Made by a program: the position numbers and the translations under genes. The notes beneath the pieces are model-generated. The model was given only the letters and a program-made list of their open reading frames with translations, did not search any database and was not told the DNA's origin. A stretch of 64,000 nucleotides of DNA from Eublepharis macularius (taxonomy: Eukaryota > Chordata > Lepidosauria > Squamata > Eublepharidae), in NCBI RefSeq assembly GCF_028583425.1, contig NC_072791.1, positions 31,565,368 to 31,629,367 on the forward strand, given 5' to 3'. Positions 28,501-38,600 of this stretch are shown here, in pieces. The number at the start of each line of letters is the position of its first letter. The first letter of the stretch is position 1.

Positions 28501-31500
28501 GAGATTCAAATCCGTGTATTGAGAGAATTTGGGCTTTCTGATTCTGCTGCTGAACTCTTGCAGGTATGGAGCACTGACAGTTAAGCTGTCTGCCAGTACT
28601 TAACTGTCCCCCAAATGACTGGCTTTTATTCCTCCCCAACATAATTGAAAATGGGCGTGTATGTACATCTGTGTAAGAGTAAGTAGTGAACGAATAGCCA
28701 GAGGAAGCTTTGCTGCGATTGCAAAGGAGCTTTATAGCAGTCTTCTATACAGCCAAGGCAAGCAAGGTTGTATAGTATGAGAAAGACTTGTCAGATTTGC
28801 TTGCGTAACTAACTGAAGTCCAGGAAATTATTCACAGTACAGCTTTTTACTGCTTGATTCTGAATGCTCCTGATAAGTTGAACTATAAAAGTAAGCCCAC
28901 TCCTAAATATACACTTAAAGAATAATGTATAATATATAGAAAGGTCCGTGGCTCAGCGGTAGATTGTGTGCAAAAGGTCCCAGGTTCAGGCCCCAGCATC
29001 TCCAGAAGTTGGTGATGTGAAAGCCCTCATCTTGAGTTCCTGAAAAGCCACCGCCAGTCAGAGTAGACAGGACTAGGGGTTTGCGATTCAGGAAAGTGCC
29101 CAAATGTGACCCGACTCGCAATGATTCGGGATTTCCGAATCAGTGCTTCCCGAAGTGATTCGTATTGCTTTGGAAAGCTTTGGGTCAAGGGGTTTAAATG
29201 CCCCTTTCGTGCCACTGCAAAGCTGCCGCAGCAGTGAACAAAGTGGAGGAGGCCCTTCCTCACCCTCAAATGGCCGCCGTGATGGCCATTTGAGGAGCAG
29301 GAAAGGCCAGAGGAGGCAGCTGGAGCCTTCCCCACCAGCCAGCTAGCTGCTGTGGGCCCTGCAGGTGGCAGCATAGCAGAGGAGGAGGAGGCTACAGGCC
29401 ATCCCAGCCTTACGAGGGCTGCCGGAGCTGCTGCTACAGTGGCAGCGGCACCCTCCCACCGCCCAGCTGATTGGCCTCCCCTCTCCCTCCCGGCCAGGTA
29501 AGTGGGGGGTGAGTTTGCCCCTGGGGGGTGGGGATGGGGGGGTTTGCTCCCCCTCACTTCAGTATGCTCCAAATCTTTACGGAGCATACCAAAGCGAGCT
29601 AAATACCAGAATCCCGAAGTGGCTTGCCTCTTCGGGATTCTGGTAATTCAAGAATTTTTTCCTGCTTTGGGTAAACCTGAAGTGGGAAACCCAAATCTTT
29701 TGGGGGTGCACACCCCTAGACAGGACTGAACTTGAGAGATCAATGGTCTGAGTCAGCATAGCATAATTTCATGTTCATAGCAACTTTCTAAAACTTTTGA
29801 ACTGAAGGTCCACATGAGCAAATCCTGCATAAGTAACCTAACTAGGGATGTGTGATTTGGTATTCCCAATTCTAATACTCCTGGCTGTCTGCAAACTATG
29901 CAAAACTGCATTATTCAAGGTGACTTTTAACTTTGCTATACTGCAAAGTTGTTGTTTCAAAGAGATGCATAAAGGGATAGGGACTACAGATTTTACTGTT
30001 GTGTACTGTCTGTTGCTGTCTGTTCCTACTGGGTAGTTTCTATATGGTTTAATATGCTGGTGTTAGAAATCCTTATGCTCTGTTTCAACATATCTTCAAC
30101 TCTGTATTGGACTTTTGCTGGTTTTAAATCTTGAAATTTGTATTTATATACCCTATTACATTGTTTATTGAGATGTCTATGAAATTGCTTGTTCTGATTC
30201 ACAGTGTGTGATCTGCCTTGAGTCTCAATGAGAAGGACTATAAACAGTATAAATAAATAAATAAATCTCTCTTATTTGGATAAATCGGTATTTATATTCC
30301 TGAATAATTCAGATATATCTGGGAATCTTGCAGGCTTTCCAGGCAAGAGGAGGGAGGGAGGCAGCATTGCTGTGTCTGTGTTCATGTTGCTTGCTTGCCA
30401 TAGGCCGTTGCCAGGTCTGGCTGTTGCCTTAGGATTCTCTGGCTTGATGTTGGTACTGTTCGGCTTGCAATGGCCTGGCATCTTTGGCCTGGTTCTGCCT
30501 GGCATCTTTCGGCTTGCAATGGCCTGGCATCTTTGAGGAACATTGGTTCTGTTGGACTTGTAACAGTGTCCCTTGCTTCAGTTTGGTTCTGCTTGGATTC
30601 TCTGGTTCGATATTGGTTCTGTTGGGCTTTTTTGATTCTGTTTGTATTGGAAGGCTTTTGGTCATTGGTTGCTGTTATGTTTGATTAAGGTTTCTTGTGT
30701 AGTAGAGAAAACCTTGGATTTTCTCTCCATAGGAAGCAATGGAGAGTAGCTGAAGGAAGGCTGTTTAGGGGCATGTAGAATTGGGGCCTCTGGTCCAATT
30801 CACTTAAAACTTCGGGGTGGGGGGAGGTCTTTAGTGGACAGGCAAGGCTAGGTCCCCTGCAATTTTGCTTGAAAAATGCCCCCCTCTATCCCCCTGGATT
30901 TTTCCATATGGAATAATGGAGCCAGATATATTCAGAATCCCAAATAATACCCAAGTCCAAATACTATATTGGTATTTTTGGACCCGAATATTGGGAATAC
31001 CAAATATATATAGTATTCTGGATACACGAATCAAAATACCAATCTTTTTTTAATTGAATACTTCTAATCCTAACTACTTTCCAGTATCAACTCCATATTC
31101 TTCAAGTTGCTTTTATGTTTATTTTAAATAACACCATCAACATGCTCACCAGTTTCAGAGTTCAGGAACAGAGGTCCCTGCTTCGAGGAAGCTTACAAAC
31201 GAACAGTTCAGTGGTAGGCAGAGTTGTATTGTCGAAGGCTTTCACGGCCGGAGAACGATGGTTGTTGGGGGTTTTCCGGGCTGTATTGCCGTGGTCTTGG
31301 CATTGTAGTTCCTGACGTTTCGCCAGCAGCTGTGGCTGGCATCTTCAGAGGTGTAGCACCAAAAGACAGAGATCTCTCAGTGTCACAGTGTGGAAAAGAT
31401 GTAGGTCATTTGTATCTACTCAGGAGGGGTGGGGTTGAGCTGAGTCATTCTGTAAGAGTTTCCCAGGGTGTGGAATGCTAATGGCGGGAGGCTTCACTGA

Positions 31501-34500
31501 ATCCTGAGGAGGTTCTTTTGCATATGGATTGGTGCTTGATGTGCTAATCTTCTCTGCAGGGCTATTGTCGGGTGTGGAGTGTTTTGTTGGCCTGGTGTTT
31601 TTCAGAACTGGAGCCCATGCTCTGTTCATTCTTAAGGTTTCTTCTTTCCTGTTGAAGTTTTGCTTATGCTTGTGAATTTCAATGGCTTCCCTGTGCAGTC
31701 TGACAAAGTAGTTGGAAGTGTTGTCCAGTATTTTGGTGTCCTGGAATAAGATACTGTGCCCTGTTTGAGTTAGGCTATGTTCAGCCACTGCTGATTTTTC
31801 AGGCTGTCCAAGTCTGCAGTGTCTTTCAGTGTCTTTCAAGAACATGAAAGACACTGCAGACTTGGACAGCCTGAAAAATCAGCAGTGGCTGAACATAGCC
31901 TAACTCAAACAGGGCACAGTATCTTATTCCAGGACACCAAAATACTGGACAACACTTCCAACTACTTTGTCAGACTGCACAGGGAAGCCATTGAAATTCA
32001 CAAGCATAAGCAAAACTTCAACAGGAAAGAAGAAACCTTAAGAATGAACAGAGCATGGGCTCCAGTTCTGAAAAACACCAGGCCAACAAAACACTCCACA
32101 CCCGACAATAGCCCTGCAGAGAAGATTAGCACATCAAGCACCAATCCATATGCAAAAGAACCTCCTCAGGATTCAGTGAAGCCTCCCGCCATTAGCATTC
32201 CACACCCTGGGAAACTCTTACAGAATGACTCAGCTCAACCCCACCCCTCCTGAGTAGATGCAAATGACCTACATCTTTTCCACACTGTGACACTGAGAGA
32301 TCTCTGTCTTTTGGTGCTACACCTCTGAAGATGCCAGCCACAGCTGCTGGCGAAACGTCAGGAACTACAATGCCAAGACCACGGCAATACAGCCCGGAAA
32401 ACCCCCAACAACCATCGTAGGCAGAGTTGCACCTTGTAAGCCCATTGACTTCAGTGGATTTAGAAGGGTATAATCCTGGTTACCGTGGCACTGTGAAATA
32501 CCTCACTTTAGCAAAGAGAAAGGTATGGTTTTGAAGGAAAGAACAAAACCTCTAGTTTGACTTTTTCCAGGCCCTAAATCAAGGGAATGTACTTTAACCA
32601 GAAGTGCTTTATAAAATGATACTTTTTTGTTTCACAGAGGGAGCCACCCAGTGGTGGCCTGTAACATACAGCTTTTTTTTTTTAAGTAAAGTTTTAGGTT
32701 GCTTTGAGCAAACAAGGACATCACAACAGAATCTACATTTTGCCCTTTCAGGCTGTTTAGACAGATTCATTTAACGCCATATGTGTGTATTCCGTTTGTG
32801 ATTCATAATTTCCATTCTTGTATCTGATTGTCAACAGGAAAAACATAGCTAAGATTTTAGTTATATGACCTGACATGTTCTGATTTTTAGAATGCCTCAA
32901 TAAACTATTTTTACTGCTGAAATACTAATGTAGATTCTTCGATCACTTACAATTTGTTTTTCCATTGCAGAATCCTCACAAGTTCTTTCCCGAGGAGCAT
33001 TTTGGCGATGAAAGCCCACTGTTGAACCTGAGGCAGTCGGGGCGATGCCGTGTGAACAGCACGCCTGCTGCAGAAACCCTGTTTACAGAACTCGACTCCT
33101 TTGTGGCCTTCCATCCGCCACTGCCCCCTCCCCCCCCACCTTACCATCCACCAGCTACTCCAATTCACAACCAGTTCAAAGTGGGGTGGAAGCAAAGGGC
33201 ACAGAGCCAGCAGCATCCCTCAAGGTCCTTTTCATACCCCTGCAACCATTCCTTGTTCCACTCCAGGACAGCACCCAAAGTTGCCCCACCCATCTACTTG
33301 TCTGGGGTCAAAGCTACGCCTCCCGATTGCACTAACACAACAGGACTGGGAAGACAGACTGTGGCTGCAGCAGCAGCTGTCATGGTGGCTGAAAAGCAAG
33401 TGGTAAGTGTGCCAGATACAAGTGTGACATCCTCCCTTCCCCTGGACACGTGTGAACGATAAACTGTCATGGTTCATTGTCCTGGTGCAGTAAGCAAAGT
33501 GCCTACAAGAAGAGTTTGGAATTTAGCAATATCAAACCAGGTACCTGTTAGCCTAATTACAGACTGAGTATTCTCTGGCAGCCGAGCACTGGATCATTCC
33601 AGTGAGGTTTTGTATGACAGGCATGTAGCATCTCTTCTGTCTTGGGTATAACAACGCAATTGTGCTAGATCAGACTAATAGTCCACCCAGCCTGTTTCAA
33701 CGTTGGCCAACCATATCCCCTCAGGAAGCCCATCAGCAGGTCATGGAGGCCAAAGTCTTCTCCTCTTGTTCCCAGCACCTAGTATTCAGGTCAGTATCTT
33801 TCAATGTCTCAGCCCAAGCCTTGCGGATGAGCATATTTTTTTTGGCAGCAGCTTACCCTAAATAATTTGACAGATTTCTTTATTCAGGGTGGCAGGGAGC
33901 ATCATGTATACAGAATAAACACTTCTGTGCGGGTGCACATGCAAAGCAATCCATTGTTTAAATGGGCTGGGTGGGAGGATGCAACAGCATCTTAGAGCGG
34001 CAGCAAAACAACTCCCTTCTCTCCATTAACACTTTTAGAATATCCCCTTAGTTGGGTGCCGGGGTGTGTATGTATGCATGCAGATGACAGAGCAGCACAA
34101 GTGGATTTAGTGGAGGTGGATTTTTGCTCTTACTGTCATTATTGAGTGTTCAGTTACTAAAGCGTTTGGAAGAAGTGCATAGATAGCATTGGAAGCTTTA
34201 AGCTGTTGTCCCAAGGTTATACTTTTAAATCGGATTGTGTTCAGCTGAATAATTCATGACAAGGTGTTAAGAGATGAAATCAGCACAGAGGAGAACACGT
34301 GGCTTAATGTTTTGATGCAGAAAGCATTTATGTCTCAGGCCAAAGGAACTGAACTGCTGCTTTGAAAGGAAGAAAAAAACAGGGTCCAGTATAAACCTGT
34401 CTTGTTCTCTAGTTATATTAAACACACAGTAGACAACTATGAAGGCTAGCCTGAAACAAATTAGGAAGAACTTGGTTCGTTTTTGTGGCTTCTGTGCAGT

Positions 34501-37500
34501 TCCATATTGAGACTGCGCACACGCAGGCCAGCCACAGAGATTTCCAGAGCTTTCTAGAAGACTAGGAGTGCCCCTCCTCCCTTCAGCACTTTCCTGCCAA
34601 AATCATCACATGACCAGAATGAGGGGCGCTATTCTCTGTGCTCTTTTTGCCACTGCAAAGAAGGGCTCTCCATTGCTATTCACCACTAAATGAACAGCCA
34701 GACGTGTGAAGCTCCTCTTCCTTTTTGAAAGACACTCGTTTTATAAAAACTTCTCTCTTGTGTAAATCACACTGCACAATTCAGCACAGCAATTACTTTT
34801 TATAATCTGATCACCTGTTTATCTTGTTTAATGAGTTCAAAATGTTACAGGGCATGCAGGTCAATCAGCACAGCAAGTTTGCATATAGGGAAACCATTCT
34901 CCCTAATACTGTTGGGTGACACCTGGCTTTGCAGTGTATGTGGACCAGGGTTCCTGCGAACATGAGTTCCTGCGCTACAGCGCAGGAATTGTCACAACTC
35001 AGCGCAGAGCTGAGAAGCCCCAGCGCACAGAAGGCGCTGGAGGAGGAGCCGCGGCTCTGTGGGAAGAGCTGCAGCAGACGCCGGTGTAGCCTTTCCCTCG
35101 CTGGGCTCCGGAGGAGGCACCGCAGCAGCCGCCCGCACGGCCTTTCTCCAGCCCCTCGCAGCAGGCACCCAGGCAGCCTTTCCCCCGGGCTCTGGAGGAG
35201 GCACTGCAGCAGGCGCCCGTGTAGCCTTTCCCCAGCCCCTTGCCAAAGCTCAGGGGAAAGAGCTGTGGGAGGTGCCCGCGCGTGGCCTTTCCCCAGCCCC
35301 TCGCCAGGCTCGGGGGGGGGGAGAAGAGCCGTGGCAGGTGCCCATGCGGCCTTTCCCTAGCCCATCGCTGGGCTCTGGAAGAGGATCCGCGGCAGGCGCC
35401 TGCACAGCCTTTTCCCAGCCCATCGCCGGGCTCTGTGGGAAGAGCTGCGGCAGGCGCCGGTGTGGCCTTTCCCCAGCCCCTCGCTGGGCTCTAGAGGAGG
35501 CACCACAGCAGCCGCCCGCACAGCCTTTCGCCGGCCCCCCACCAGGCTGGGGGGGGGGGAGAGCCGCAGCAGGCACCCAGGCAGCCTTTCCCCCGGGCTC
35601 TGGAGGAGGCACTGCAGCAGGCGCCCGCACGGCCTTTCCCCAGCCCCACGCCAGGCACAGGGGAAAGAGTCATGGCAGGTGCCCGCGCGGCCTTTCCCTA
35701 GCCCCTTGTTGGGCTCTAGGGGAAGAGCCGAGGCAGGCGCCCACGCAGCCTTTCCCAGGCCCCTCGTTGGGCTCTGGAGGAGGCGCTGCGGCAGCCACCC
35801 ACATGGCCTTTCCCCGGCCCCTCAGAGGAAAGAGTTGCGGCAGGCATCCCCAAGGCCTTTCGCCAGCCCGCCAAGCATCCTCTCTGGCCCAGTGCTGGAG
35901 GAAAAGGCGGTGGCGGCAGGCACCCATGCTATTTCTCACCAGCCCACCGAGCAGCCTCTCTGGCCCAGCGCGGGTGCTGGAGGAGGAGGAGGAGATGGCG
36001 GTGGTGTTTCACACTCCTAGGGTTGCCAGCTCCAGGTAGGGAAATACTCTTTTTTGTGTGTGTGTAAATTCATGACTAAGGAAATCTATTTTACATGCAC
36101 ACAAAAAATTGACTTCCTAGTCACAAAGACTTGCATGGCAAGGAAAATTCATGACAGAGCTAGGGTCTGAATCTGGAAATTTTACCCGGGCTGGTAAGAC
36201 AGCCTGTCCTCTAGTTAAATTACTCCATGGGGAGTGGGGAGCTGCGGCCTCAGTTTTACCAGTATTTTTGTACATCAATGGCATTCTGCTTATATCTTCA
36301 GGGGAGAATAGATCATTGCAATACAGTGTAATAAAACAGAATGGCAAGCAAGGAGAAGGCAGGACTTCAATGCTGACTTTATGCTTTATGACTTGATTTC
36401 ATTTCAAAGATTCCATGGCCATAACTCACAAAGAGAAAAGGAAAGAGTTTTAAAGCCATGAAGCCTCTAGGATGACTAAAGGCCAGTTCTAGGTTGTTCC
36501 AAATGAGCCGCTCTCAGCTGGAAGCTAAATAGGTGCTCCCCCTGCAACTTCAGCCAGCTTCCTTCTTCTTTCTGCAAACCTGGCCACAGAAGAGACAGGA
36601 AATGCCAGTCGACAGAGCAGAGGTAGAGGGAGGGATGACTGCACATCACATTCTGTTTAGGATTTGCTTGTGGGCAAAGAGGAACCCTTACTGAAGCTCA
36701 TCTGCCTGATGTTGCCCAAAATGCAAAGAGAACTCGGCAATACACTGATGCCTGTGGAAAGAAATGGTGTCTGAGCCATTTGCAGGCATGCTTCACAACA
36801 CCTTTTTATATAAAACATAGAAGGGAATAGCCAGAGAGTGAGTGCATTGCGGGGCTGGATGATGCACAATTCTTCTTCTCTGTAGATCCAGAGGAGTTAG
36901 CCGTGTTAGTCTGTAGTTGCAAAATAGTAAAGAGTCCAGGAGCATCTTTAAGACTAACCAACTTTATTGAGGCATAAGCTTTTGAGAACCACATGCCTAA
37001 GTGGGTGTCATCAACATATTGATGGCACCCAATACCAATGCCTCAGACAGCCTAAATCAAAAGTCTTTTAATCAAATGGATTCTGGTTTTCGAAAAGGCG
37101 CGCTCACAACTTGCAAGTTGCTGCTCACAAATTGGATTTCTGGCTCACAACACTGCACCGCTTAGAGGGAACATTGAGTGGACTTATGTATTGGCAAGTC
37201 CAGTTGCAAAGGTATTGCAATACAATTTAGTGCAGCTCACTTCAGAGGTAACTTCATTTAAGGTGATTGCCTCCACTGATTGTCTCTAGAGTTGTTTACA
37301 TCATTTTTTGCCTACCTGCTTTGGTAATAAAGTTTTAATTGATTTTGGAAGCTTATTCTGGGTACTTGTTTTACAATGCAAACCTAAGAAGAGTTACTCC
37401 AGTCTAAACCCATTGATTTCAGTGGGCTTAGACTGGAGTAACTCTTCTTAGGATTGCACTGTGTTAGAAAATGTATATGCCACGTGTACGTGCTTGAGGC

Positions 37501-38600
37501 AGTTCATAGATCTGCTCATTTTAAGTACTGACTATTACACTCTTGCCATTTTGTTTTAATTCAGCAGCAAACTCCTTTTGGAGCTGGAGGAATAGAGTGT
37601 AGAACATTGTAATAGACAAAATTTTGGAGCTGAGAGTCCAGACTCTTAAGGGTAGCCTGTAGTAAGCTTGGCCTTCTGCAGGCTGAAGTAGTTCTGGAAG
37701 GGGGGCAGTAATAGACCTGCTTGTTTATAGCTAGAACACAAGGGAGGGAAATAACACAAGTGAAATGAATGTTCTTTTTTCCAGGGTACGCAACCTGTGC
37801 TCAATGAGCTGATGCCAGATATTGCAATGGGTGTGTCGACAATGTCTCTTAAGGACAGGAGGCTGCCTGAGCTCACTGTTGACACAGAACTAAGCCAGCC
37901 TGTTTTGGAGATCGGACCAGGACCACCCCAGCACATTTCATGCATTCAGACAAGGCACATGCACAGTTCCCGGAAGAAACACTCGGTTGAGCAAAAGCTG
38001 GATACGAGAGACAATCCACAGGAATATCCTGATTTCTACGATTTCTCCAATGCCGCATGCAAACCTTCTACTCCAGCGGCTGGCAGGCATACACCTTCAC
38101 CTTCCCAAGGCATCTATTTTGGCCCAGATTTGTATAGCCACAGTAAAGCATCACCTAGTGGCTTAAAACCCACTCACCTGTCTAATCATCTCTCCCCTAA
38201 AAAACTAGAGGACCCAAGGAGAGAGTACTCGCTTTCTCAAGATGGACATCCACACAGACAAAAGAATGAACCGATACACCTAGATGTCTTAGAGCAGCCA
38301 CCCCAGCGGTTGGATTTGGCATTGGCTGCCCAAGAGAACACTGGGAATGGCCCAGTTCACACAAGAGGACGATCAAAAATGGAAACAGACTTGACTTACG
38401 GGCTGACTGCTAGCCGGCCTTCTCTGCCTACGTACAGTTTAGAGACCCACGAAGAGCAATCCAGCCGGAGGTTGGTGGACATGGAGCCTCTTGAGCATGA
38501 AGCACAGAGGAATGCAGATTTTGAAAGGGAAGAGGCAGTAAGCAGAGGAAGGCGGTCTCCAAGCAAAGCAGACTTCCTGTACAAAAAATCTGCCCTCTGA
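19330..38600 (+). CDS. BTBD7: BTBD7 (BTB/POZ domain-containing protein 7), 3' part of gene, eight coding exons
   Basis: Joining 19330-19538, 21774-21849, 23025-23185, 23481-23624, 25324-25513, 28385-28563, 32971-33402 and 37785-38600 gives one open frame of 734 residues plus a split first codon and a TGA stop. All joins have AG/GT borders and matching phases. The protein reads as the C-terminal two thirds of BTBD7, which in human is about 1130 residues. In this part the first four exons form the BACK-like region after the two BTB domains, whose exons lie upstream of the window. The rest is low-complexity, with a proline run PPLPPPPPPYHPP and an end of DFLYKKSAL as in mammals. BTBD7 is known as a regulator of epithelial branching that lowers E-cadherin and promotes cleft formation. 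The alanine/threonine tract before EKQV is much shorter than in human. The identification is very strong; exon borders are read by eye. Confidence 0.95.
19539..21773 (+). other. BTBD7: BTBD7 intron (2.2 kb)
   Basis: GT...AG intron. A C/G-rich block at about 20275-20420 with repeated GGGGG/CCCCC stretches may be an unclassified repeat. Otherwise nothing is recognised. Confidence 0.6.
21774..21849 (+). CDS. BTBD7: BTBD7 coding exon (76 bp)
   Basis: It follows the acceptor TCTGGTAG and is closed by the strong donor GTAAGT at 21850. It encodes ASEQDVLKYLVKWGEHQLMK to RIADR and ends one base into a Glu codon. This continues the BACK-like helical region. Confidence 0.95.
21928..22112 (-). repeat. 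tRNA-derived SINE, minus strand
   Basis: On the + strand it shows GAAGCTGCTGTCTACATG, then CTGGAGATGCCAAGGACCGA and GCATCTGCTTTGCTACTGAG, the reverse complement of the tRNA-like SINE head. Diverged. Confidence 0.6.
22113..23024 (+). other. BTBD7: BTBD7 intron remainder
   Basis: Intronic sequence between the SINE and the next exon; nothing recognised. Confidence 0.5.
23025..23185 (+). CDS. BTBD7: BTBD7 coding exon (161 bp)
   Basis: The acceptor TTTCTGACAG ends at 23024 and the donor GTAAGT starts at 23186. It completes the Glu codon and encodes PNLLSGTAHSVNKRGVKRRD through LPMNSEVLTDS, ending in phase 0. The segment NKRGVKRRDLD is near identical to human. Confidence 0.95.
23481..23624 (+). 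CDS. BTBD7: BTBD7 coding exon (144 bp, 48 codons)
   Basis: The acceptor is CCCCCTCAAAG, a pyrimidine tract with AG, and the donor GTAATG starts at 23625. It encodes MKRGLISTPPSDMLPTAEGG through RPRLFSPYVEEAK in phase 0 at both ends, so skipping it would keep the frame. The intron before it is only 295 bp. Confidence 0.95.
24832..24930 (-). repeat. CORE-SINE 3' part, minus strand
   Basis: TATCCCACCCTTCCTCCAGA and CACAGCAACCCTACGAGGTG are the reverse complement of the SINE tail and core. Confidence 0.65.
24952..25030. repeat. Hairpin repeat (MITE-like), copy 1
   Basis: A palindromic unit of about 80 bp centred on AAGCCCATTGAAATCAATAG, with arms CCAGTCTAAGCC and GGCTTAGACTAGG. Same family as 26011-26095 and 37374-37463. 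Confidence 0.6.
25324..25513 (+). CDS. BTBD7: BTBD7 coding exon (190 bp)
   Basis: It follows the acceptor ATTGTTTCAG and is followed by GTAAAA. It encodes SVLDEMMVEQTDLVRLRMVR through PPSVVANEIP and ends one base into a Val codon. The segment VPDTLYMVNNAVPQCCHMIS is essentially unchanged from human. Confidence 0.95.
25886..25985 (-). repeat. Hammerhead-like short repeat, copy A
   Basis: The minus strand reads CTGAAGAAGGGAGCTTTGAG then TCTTGAAAACTTATACTC and GTTGGTCTCTAAGGTGCCAC. It contains the CTGANGA and GAAA core pieces. The 3' part is truncated. Confidence 0.55.
26011..26095. repeat. Hairpin repeat (MITE-like), copy 2
   Basis: Arms GATCCTAAGCAGAGTTACTC and GAGTAACTCTGCTTAGGATT are near-perfect inverted repeats around CCCATTGAAATCAATGGG. 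Confidence 0.75.
26096..28384 (+). other. BTBD7: BTBD7 intron around the CR1 end
   Basis: Besides the CR1 fragment, 26096-27682 holds nothing I can name. Confidence 0.5.
27683..28112 (-). repeat. CR1 LINE 3' end, minus strand
   Basis: The 3' end carries the CR1 octamer repeat, seen on + as TCATAGAATCATAGAATCAT, then GTTGGAAGGGGCCATA. The minus frame 28032-27763 reads DMIALFKYLKGCHLEEGREL and SLAVFKKRLDEYL, a CR1 ORF2 C-terminus that is open over 89 codons, so the copy is only moderately old. It is 5' truncated. Confidence 0.9.
28385..28563 (+). CDS. BTBD7: BTBD7 coding exon (179 bp)
   Basis: The acceptor is TTCTTTGACAG and the donor GTATGG starts at 28564. It encodes PRLSVVKDMVKRLQELRHME through SDSAAELLQ and ends in phase 0. 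The segment QRAYALNCGEGATVSYEIQI is conserved. A CR1 LINE end lies 270 bp upstream. Confidence 0.95.
28940..29780 (+). repeat. tRNA-derived SINE split by a hAT-like element
   Basis: Head GGTCCGTGGCTCAGCGGTAG (A-box-like) and AGGTCCCAGGTTCAGGCCCC (B-box-like). The body runs to GAGTAGACAGGAC (29073) and resumes at 29727 with TGAACTTGAGAGATCAATGG, ending AATTTCATGTTC. The gap is the element at 29074-29718. Confidence 0.75.
29074..29718. mobile_element. Nonautonomous hAT-like DNA transposon (645 bp)
   Basis: The ends are TAGGGGTTTGC and, inverted, TAGGGGTGTGC. The 8-bp duplication GACAGGAC lies at 29066-29073 and 29719-29726, the length expected for hAT. The inside has AT-rich ends with repeated TTCGGGATT-type motifs and a GC-rich centre (29200-29540) with (CCG)-type codon runs and no transposase. 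Confidence 0.75.
29845..31068. mobile_element. Second hAT-like element with a LINE end inside
   Basis: It starts with GGGATGTGTGATTTGGTATT, related to the 29074 element. ATTTGGTATTCCC (29856-) recurs inverted as GGGAATACCAAAT near 30993. The 8-mer CCTAACTA lies at 29837-29844 and 31069-31076 and may be the target duplication, though the outer ends match poorly. An L2-like LINE tail sits inside. Near 30455-30535 a unit with CGGCTTGCAATGGCCTGGCA is duplicated. Confidence 0.4.
30085..30270 (+). repeat. L2/CR1-like LINE 3' tail
   Basis: It has TTCAACTCTGTATTGGACTT and ends GATCTGCCTTGAGTCTCAAT, GAGAAGGACTATAAACAG, then (AAAT)n. The same family occurs at 54418-54650 and 60545-60718. Confidence 0.65.
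31314..31348 (-). ncRNA. Hammerhead ribozyme core, left arm
   Basis: Minus strand: CTGAAGA, a stem II hairpin GCCAGC/GCTGGC with loop CACAGCT, then GAAAC and GTC. The loopless ACGT stem III is like the minimal hammerheads described in Penelope-like elements. Activity is not shown. Confidence 0.65.
31420..31827 (-). pseudogene. Penelope-like GIY-YIG-type C-terminal fragment, left arm
   Basis: On the minus strand the arm encodes HCRLGQPEKSAVAEHSLTQT, then REAIEIHKHKQNFNRKEETL and RMNRAWAPVL. The pattern AVAEH...TGH...REAIEI.KH..NFNR....L.RAW.PVL is that of the linker and C-terminal endonuclease region of Penelope-like elements. Only this C-terminal piece is present. Confidence 0.75.
31846..32253 (+). 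pseudogene. Penelope-like GIY-YIG-type C-terminal fragment, right arm
   Basis: Mirror copy of the left-arm fragment, encoding the same residues on the + strand. The two reading directions diverge from the centre. A truncated fossil end, not a host gene. Confidence 0.75.
32325..32359 (+). ncRNA. Hammerhead ribozyme core, right arm
   Basis: Mirror copy of the left-arm motif: CTGAAGA, GCCAGC/GCTGGC, GAAACGTC, identical base for base. Confidence 0.65.
32430..32970 (+). other. BTBD7: BTBD7 intron after the Penelope insertion
   Basis: It starts with a degenerate hairpin-repeat copy (CCTTGTAAGCCCATTGACTT at about 32434) into which the Penelope element seems to have inserted. The rest is AT-rich and unremarkable. 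Confidence 0.5.
32971..33402 (+). CDS. BTBD7: BTBD7 coding exon (432 bp), proline-rich segment
   Basis: The acceptor TTTTCCATTGCAG ends at 32970 and the donor GTAAGT starts at 33403. It gives 144 codons, from NPHKFFPEEHFGDESPLLNL through the proline run to TVAAAAAVMVAEKQV. The Ala/Thr-rich expansion remembered from human just before EKQV is reduced here to a few alanines. It is predicted disordered from composition. Confidence 0.95.
33640..33800 (+). repeat. Unclassified dispersed reptile repeat
   Basis: GCTAGATCAGACTAATAGTC, CACCCAGCCTGTTTCAACGT and CAGGAAGCCCATCAGCAGGT follow a repeat I recall from many reptile genomes. Family unknown to me. Confidence 0.4.
34967..34988. repeat. Short perfect inverted repeat
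   Basis: TTCCTGCGC TACA GCGCAGGAA: nine-base arms with a four-base loop, just before the minisatellite. Confidence 0.6.
35085..36010. repeat. GC-rich minisatellite, unit about 58 bp, about 16 copies
   Basis: GCCTTTCCCCAGCCCC recurs with starts near 35087, 35225, 35350, 35407, 35465, 35523, 35632, 35690, 35748 and 35806, mostly 58 bases apart with some shorter units. Copies carry blocks such as GGGCTCTGGAGGAGGC and GGCAGGCGCCCGC. Long stop-free frames on both strands are a by-product of the composition. It lies inside a BTBD7 intron. Confidence 0.85.
36888..37025 (-). repeat. Hammerhead-like short repeat, copy B
   Basis: The + strand starts GGAGTTAGCCGTGTTAGTCT and passes through GACTAACCAACTTTATTGAG. 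The minus strand has CAAAAGCTTATGCCTCAATA. Stem arms are at 36905-36912 and 36951-36958. Confidence 0.6.
37374..37463. repeat. Hairpin repeat (MITE-like), copy 3
   Basis: Arms CCTAAGAAGAGTTACTCCAG and CTGGAGTAACTCTTCTTAGG are perfectly complementary and extend inward with few mismatches around ACCCATTGATTTCAGTGGG. Confidence 0.8.
37785..38600 (+). CDS. BTBD7: BTBD7 last coding exon
   Basis: The acceptor is TTTTTTCCAG at 37775-37784. It encodes 271 residues, from GTQPVLNELMPDIAMGVSTM to RSPSKADFLYKKSAL, then TGA at 38598-38600. It is rich in Ser, Pro, His and charged residues and looks disordered, with blocks such as NPQEYPDFYDFSNAAC conserved with mammals. Confidence 0.96.
   Translation, partial: GTQPVLNELMPDIAMGVSTMSLKDRRLPELTVDTELSQPVLEIGPGPPQHISCIQTRHMHSSRKKHSVEQKLDTRDNPQEYPDFYDFSNAACKPSTPAAGRHTPSPSQGIYFGPDLYSHSKASPSGLKPTHLSNHLSPKKLEDPRREYSLSQDGHPHRQKNEPIHLDVLEQPPQRLDLALAAQENTGNGPVHTRGRSKMETDLTYGLTASRPSLPTYSLETHEEQSSRRLVDMEPLEHEAQRNADFEREEAVSRGRRSPSKADFLYKKSAL

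Follow-up and report, generated by a model that had tools for sequence, protein, structure and literature searches.

Head-to-head inverted copies are already known for Penelope-like elements (PLEs). For the Penelope element of Adineta vaga, few copies are described, in which the pLTRs are inverted and one of the two bears a 31-bp tail; target duplications are short, and palindromes occur at the inverted junction. Self-priming on an antisense template was proposed there, and the origin of the head-to-head copies was left undecided (PMC3846280). Also known, from work on the Poseidon element of Anolis carolinensis (PAc), are a protein that cuts and extends both strands in vitro and two adjacent internal starts that bound the tail, mainly at nucleotides (nt) 111 to 118 of the open reading frame (ORF); the same study states that the later steps of PLE integration are yet to be validated (PMC11167929). 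Titles and abstract openings, with few subscription papers covered, yielded no genome-scale test of self-priming against two-ended priming. Here, a near-perfect palindrome in a 64,000-nt stretch of the Eublepharis macularius genome (contig NC_072791.1, positions 31,565,368 to 31,629,367; hereafter the window) was analyzed together with its relatives elsewhere in that genome. Like the A. vaga copies, it is a head-to-head pair with a 31-bp tail on one arm, short target duplications and a palindromic junction. It is quite probably a single Poseidon/Penelope-type insertion made by two-ended target-primed reverse transcription, the two complementary DNAs (cDNAs) then having been end joined, and two-ended priming fits the both-strand activity of the PAc protein. 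The palindrome itself is ordinary, and the family around it amounts to a natural experiment: this genome has thousands of intact-ended copies in which arms, junctions and target duplications are readable, which makes the question of PLE integration testable.

Structure of the palindrome and its element

Over 573 bp, the arm at 31255-31827 is the reverse complement of the arm at 31846-32418; the alignment has no indel and a single mismatch at 31413 (T in the left arm and C in the right, read as the same strand), and an 18-bp center, AGTGTCTTTCAAGAACAT, separates the two. The sequence GTAGGCAGAGTTG is present at 31214 and 32417 and at no other site in the window. This base-by-base comparison agrees with a preliminary description made from the sequence, in which the arms, the single difference, the spacer and the border repeats had been reported. 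An inverted repeat of 573 bp with one mismatch is far too improbable to have arisen by chance. Taken alone, the near-identity of the arms is no evidence for a single event, because at least 39 other places in the genome match the arm at 100% as printed; that the palindrome entered as one event, as had been proposed, is upheld by the single pair of target duplications that brackets the whole. The same feature, found here and in 33 of the 36 pairs tabulated below, leaves a negligible probability that two separate insertions landed beside each other in opposite orientation, an explanation for which no supporting evidence was found. An assembly artefact, in which one copy was folded back, is scarcely credible. 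The 200-bp flanks have 26.5% ungapped identity when compared as inverted copies and so are not inverted, which is the argument the preliminary description had used; in addition, target duplications are present, the two arms are told apart by the tail and by one base, other loci show this architecture with other lengths and other target letters, and nothing was found in favor of an artefact. Both explanations were set aside.

The arm borders were refined by setting them against other genomic copies, using an element scale on which 0 is the proximal start (ORF nt 87). The tailed, or main, arm lies on the minus strand at 31225..31828 (+31 to -573), and the tailless, or partner, arm on the plus strand at 31838..32418 (-580 to +1), with nine junction letters between them (31829..31837, plus strand). 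Both are 5'-truncated 3' ends of the element facing outward, as had been noted. The tailed arm contains the ORF end, the 3' untranslated region, a hammerhead-like motif and the opening ORF codons of the next unit, and it alone carries the 31-bp tail (31225..31255, minus strand; ORF nt 88-118). The left copy of the target-site duplication occupies 31214..31226, its last two letters perhaps belonging to the element, and the right copy 32417..32429, both on the plus strand. TG on the left, and one or two letters on the right, could belong either to the target or to the element, which leaves a strict target duplication of about 10-13 bp. The nine center letters match the reverse complement of the adjoining tailless arm and, just as well, the letters with which the tailed arm begins; fold-back synthesis and slippage therefore both fit.

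On sequence grounds, we take the element to be a Poseidon/Penelope-type retroelement. A related copy at another locus (L014; loci examined are numbered with the prefix L) runs upstream into a frame of 709 amino acids (aa) with an RVT_1 domain (E = 9.4e-13); the Penelope-like identity first assigned to the arms is upheld. The best match of this frame by sequence among solved structures is an RNA-directed DNA polymerase (E = 6.6e-5). Its C-terminal part weakly matches T5orf172 (E = 0.0077; 17.2 bits, under the cut-off of 20), which we take to be a GIY-YIG-like family. The window's own 152-aa ORF fragment has no Pfam match. By inspection, the hammerhead-like motif at the end of each arm (31314..31348 on the minus strand in the tailed arm, with the CAT of the overlapped start codon ending at 31342; 32325..32359 on the plus strand in the tailless arm, with the ATG at 32331) overlaps the ATG, and its expected cut would fall 26 nt past it; an Rfam search gave no hammerhead match for the motif. 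A predicted cut at the same distance and tandem units are likewise described for PAc, a likeness by description (PMC11167929). Here, tandem units are indicated by copies exactly 2669 bp apart (three steps among 100 listed copies with T at position -1029) and by same-strand neighbors in a list of the first 100 copies of an end motif, with steps of 2669 bp two or three times and 2668 bp once. At locus L043, moreover, the reading frame passes the end of the arm into the next unit. The PLE feature of a 30-40 bp tail on one end is present as 31 bp.

Locus L043 (C1:102230650-102237000) consists of a head-to-head pair of tandem units, with a unit length of 2669 and the tail on both sides, a structure that suggests cDNA of a multi-unit RNA. 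RNA from the center of the window's palindrome (31764-31909) would form a long hairpin, which microRNA models match at scores below their gathering scores; across the palindrome, Rfam returned 17 matches, all below gathering score and nearly all of them microRNA models fitting the long hairpin.

Head-to-head pairing and fixed ends across the genome

The genome searched comprised 2.24 Gb in 72 contigs. Over all 573 bp, the left arm matches at least 39 other places at 100% as printed (from the best 40 of 738 candidates scored); 41 full-length 100% matches were listed, two of which are the window's own arms. The exact 41-letter tailed end has 11,787 genomic copies (5,887 + 5,900), and its reversed control none. 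Around the 39 other matches, 38 loci were taken, one locus holding two matches (20 of 9.9 kb, 17 of about 3.5 kb and one of 6.35 kb), giving with the window 39 loci examined and 36 pairs tabulated. The matched copy was found to be one arm of a head-to-head pair in 35 of the 39 loci; the exceptions are L009, L013, L023 and the matched copy of L015, and L043 was counted as a pair, though tandem and more complex. An 18-letter end motif has 8,896 exact copies; the first 100 of these, a less selected sample, include 34 pairs arranged head to head within 6 kb and one arranged tail to tail. The palindrome is thus the usual form of this Penelope-like family and no exception; the preliminary description had called it a striking product, a judgment that these counts do not support.

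Two of the loci, L013 and L023, hold single-arm copies with no partner detected. L023 shares about 10 letters at both ends and is perhaps a one-ended insertion. Short pairs cluster among the 34 listed on C1, with end distances of 172-274 and exact recurrence of 209 three times and of 235 twice, which suggests a preferred stop or a short derivative.

The outer ends of the arms are fixed. Of the 36 tabulated pairs, 33 have a partner arm whose end lies at -3 to +1, the outliers being L019 (at -39), L043 (tail on both arms) and L032 (the sequence taken stops short of the end). For the main arms, where selection required a reach of at least +26, the ends lie at +28 to +31. Exactly one exact tail was present in 17 of 21 pairs from the less selected list, with none in three and both in one. 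The tailed arm starts at ORF nt 118 (distal) and the tailless arm at nt 87 (proximal); the corresponding distal start of PAc lies at nt 111-118, again with the tail between two adjacent internal starts (PMC11167929). In a predicted fold, both starts would stand at the 3' edges of two neighboring loops, and 6 of 200 shuffles fold equally well. The asymmetric 28 bp that had earlier been suggested as a possible mark of the priming side is the tail known from PLEs, lying between two start sites of reverse transcription, and both sides of the palindrome look like priming sides.

The outer ends share 12-15 letters in 33 of the 36 tabulated pairs (median, 13), of which a few may be element; the remaining three are L042 (18 letters), L043 (four letters) and L032, which was read on one side only. 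The shared letters are compatible with a staggered cut that would leave 3' overhangs.

Arm lengths, joints and source of the arms

For A. vaga Penelope, it was proposed that an antisense template primes itself or that a single cDNA snaps back (PMC3846280). One arm would fold back and be copied into the other, and the second arm should then be contained in the first. This was examined in 35 pairs, with L043 left out and the tabulated pair of L015 (86/77), which is a neighboring insertion, included. At the inner ends, the tailless arm exceeds the other by more than 20 nt in nine pairs, the tailed arm does so in 12, and the two lie within 20 nt in 14. In the nine, of which L041 is ambiguous, containment fails: neither arm can be wholly copied from the other, because the tailless arm extends further at its inner end and the arm opposite, which carries the tail, extends further at its outer end. 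As a self-copied arm could exceed its template at neither end, 9 of 35 pairs speak against self-priming alone, and the three mixed-allele pairs among 23 described below tell against it as well. On its side are the 14 pairs with near-equal arms, variants private to one palindrome and present in both arms at L024 and L025, and letters in the window and L034 that may derive from fold-back. Self-priming was advanced from few copies in A. vaga; the many pairs available here argue against it as the sole mechanism, and in that role we consider it quite improbable.

The near-equal class, which includes the window (-580 and -573), is far larger than the 1.57 pairs expected by permutation (maximum of 8 in 100,000), and leaving out L015 and L042, the latter with a 544-letter insert in the center, gives 12 of 33. 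The offsets scatter on both sides of zero, from -12 to +20. Two near-equal loci, L024 and L025, each have a variant found exactly twice genome-wide, in the two arms of their own palindrome; at L016, a third such locus, the variant is also carried by two other pairs. Together, these features suggest that one cDNA end folded back and was extended on itself as template before annealing to the other cDNA. The main alternative for this class is that, after two-ended priming, both cDNAs ran to the 5' end of a single broken RNA (run-off) and no fold-back took place. The two-sided scatter of the offsets and the source variants common to both arms are compatible with run-off, and a variant found only twice would likewise result from a transcription error in a single RNA. 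It would require the same RNA molecule to be copied to its end twice, and inner ends scattered along the element and short fold-back-like inserts at some joints do not favor it; on balance run-off appears unlikely.

The 35 joints between the arms comprise 11 with microhomology of 1-6 nt, two that are blunt and 22 with inserts. Among 14 inserts of 4-60 nt, five are templated beyond 95% of shuffles, and candidate fold-back letters occur at the joints of the window and L034. Long extra pieces are present at the joints of L019, L041 and L042. The 185-letter insert of L018 resembles a stretch read in L043, although an exact match failed; it appears to continue the element past the limit of the reference copy, so that the main arm there is probably about 2.48 kb long. 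These scars resemble polymerase-theta end joining, which is described as leaving short microhomologies and short inserts templated by sequence next to the junction (PMC4912351 and others). The ends joined here differ in being retroelement cDNAs, and by this analogy polymerase theta is a candidate for the joining enzyme.

The joints also bear on the idea, raised in the preliminary description, that an RNA dimer was integrated or that synthesis switched to the second strand. A switch is plausible at the window locus. A transcript already palindromic or dimeric that was then re-inserted is not favored, because no two of the 36 tabulated junctions have both endpoints in common. The end distances recurring among short pairs (209 three times, 235 twice and 63 twice) and the tandem units 2669 bp apart would agree with re-insertion, which nevertheless seems very improbable in view of the junctions and was set aside.

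Allelic variants indicate that both arms usually come from the same source. At -1029, the T allele occurs in 106 copies and G in 3,018 (of 3,124). The 100 listed T copies form 27 head-to-head T-T pairs, no tail-to-tail pair and three tandem steps, with 42 singles. The proportion of 27 in 69 is far above 3.4%, even granting every single a G partner. Among the singles, two on C1 have no G copy within 6 kb, and in L018, L019, L037 and L040 the other arm ends short of the site. Alleles agree in all nine informative pairs of the fetched loci (seven near-equal and two unequal). Rarer variants also occur in pairs: the six genome-wide copies of -1260A are three pairs within 6 kb and occur nowhere else, -1005T (18 copies) forms four pairs with 10 singles, and -720A (19 copies) forms six pairs and one tandem with six singles, L019 being scored as single since the full pattern does not fit within its short partner. 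At -549, where A (4,448 copies) and G (2,774 copies) are both common, 23 pairs comprise 13 A-A, seven G-G and three mixed, compared with 10.7 mixed pairs expected; this deficit could come partly from bursts of different age. Main-arm variants within -573..0 are absent by selection and were left out of the evidence.

Variants found in one arm only (L017, L026 and L035) were considered as a sign of two templates and were not used, as they may be later mutations. Four -549A pairs at C1:1342380-1361150 have mirror-symmetric spacing (934, 1673, 1673 and 934), which looks like an inverted segmental duplication, so that they may represent only two independent pairs.

Proposed two-ended priming

In the mechanism proposed here, the element protein would cut both target strands about 12-14 nt apart, as the duplications suggest, leaving 3' overhangs, each of which would prime antisense cDNA synthesis on RNA from the same source. 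The distal start (ORF nt 118) would give the tailed arm and the proximal start (ORF nt 87) the tailless arm, consistent with the observed endpoints. Both cDNAs would usually halt short of one full unit, as the arms do, and their 3' ends would be joined head to head by microhomology or by templated end joining of the polymerase-theta type. In near-equal pairs (14 of 35, the window among them), one cDNA end most likely would fold back, copy itself and anneal to the other primed cDNA. Two-ended priming predicts use of both target 3' ends, fixed starts and a target duplication, and the anatomy of the pairs appears to follow this pattern. In LINE-1 twin priming, too, both target 3' ends prime cDNA and an inverted structure results, the second primer copying an internal part of the RNA. 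The inversion there involves different regions, whereas both arms here derive from the same 3' region.

Several observations weigh against this interpretation. The 38 loci were selected by an exact match of one arm, and three (L009, L013 and L023) lack a partner. Of the nine pairs with a longer tailless arm, L041 holds a further element piece in its center, which leaves eight without it. Nine of the 14 inserts show no significant templating. Three of the 23 pairs are mixed at -549, and L031 and L042 also look mixed; both arms are therefore usually, not always, of one source. For near-equal pairs, fold-back and run-off on one broken RNA both fit and are not told apart. Finally, the two arms of pairs in this genome use different start sites, one site per arm, unlike the PAc enzyme in vitro, for which no start-site difference between top and bottom strand is reported (PMC11167929).

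A more specific version, put forward tentatively and with somewhat more doubt than confidence, is an obligate two-ended reaction. A protein dimer would cut both strands, and each subunit would start at a dedicated loop of one source RNA, often perhaps of one molecule, giving a tailed and a tailless arm; near-palindromes would arise via coupled termination or fold-back repair. If so, head-to-head pairing would be the normal product of this PLE and no aberration.

Elsewhere in the window, a GC-rich minisatellite with a period of about 58 or 116 lies at 35187-35823; a long open frame runs through it, with no Pfam match. A 278-aa open frame on the plus strand at 37764-38600, also with no Pfam match, may be an exon of a cellular gene.

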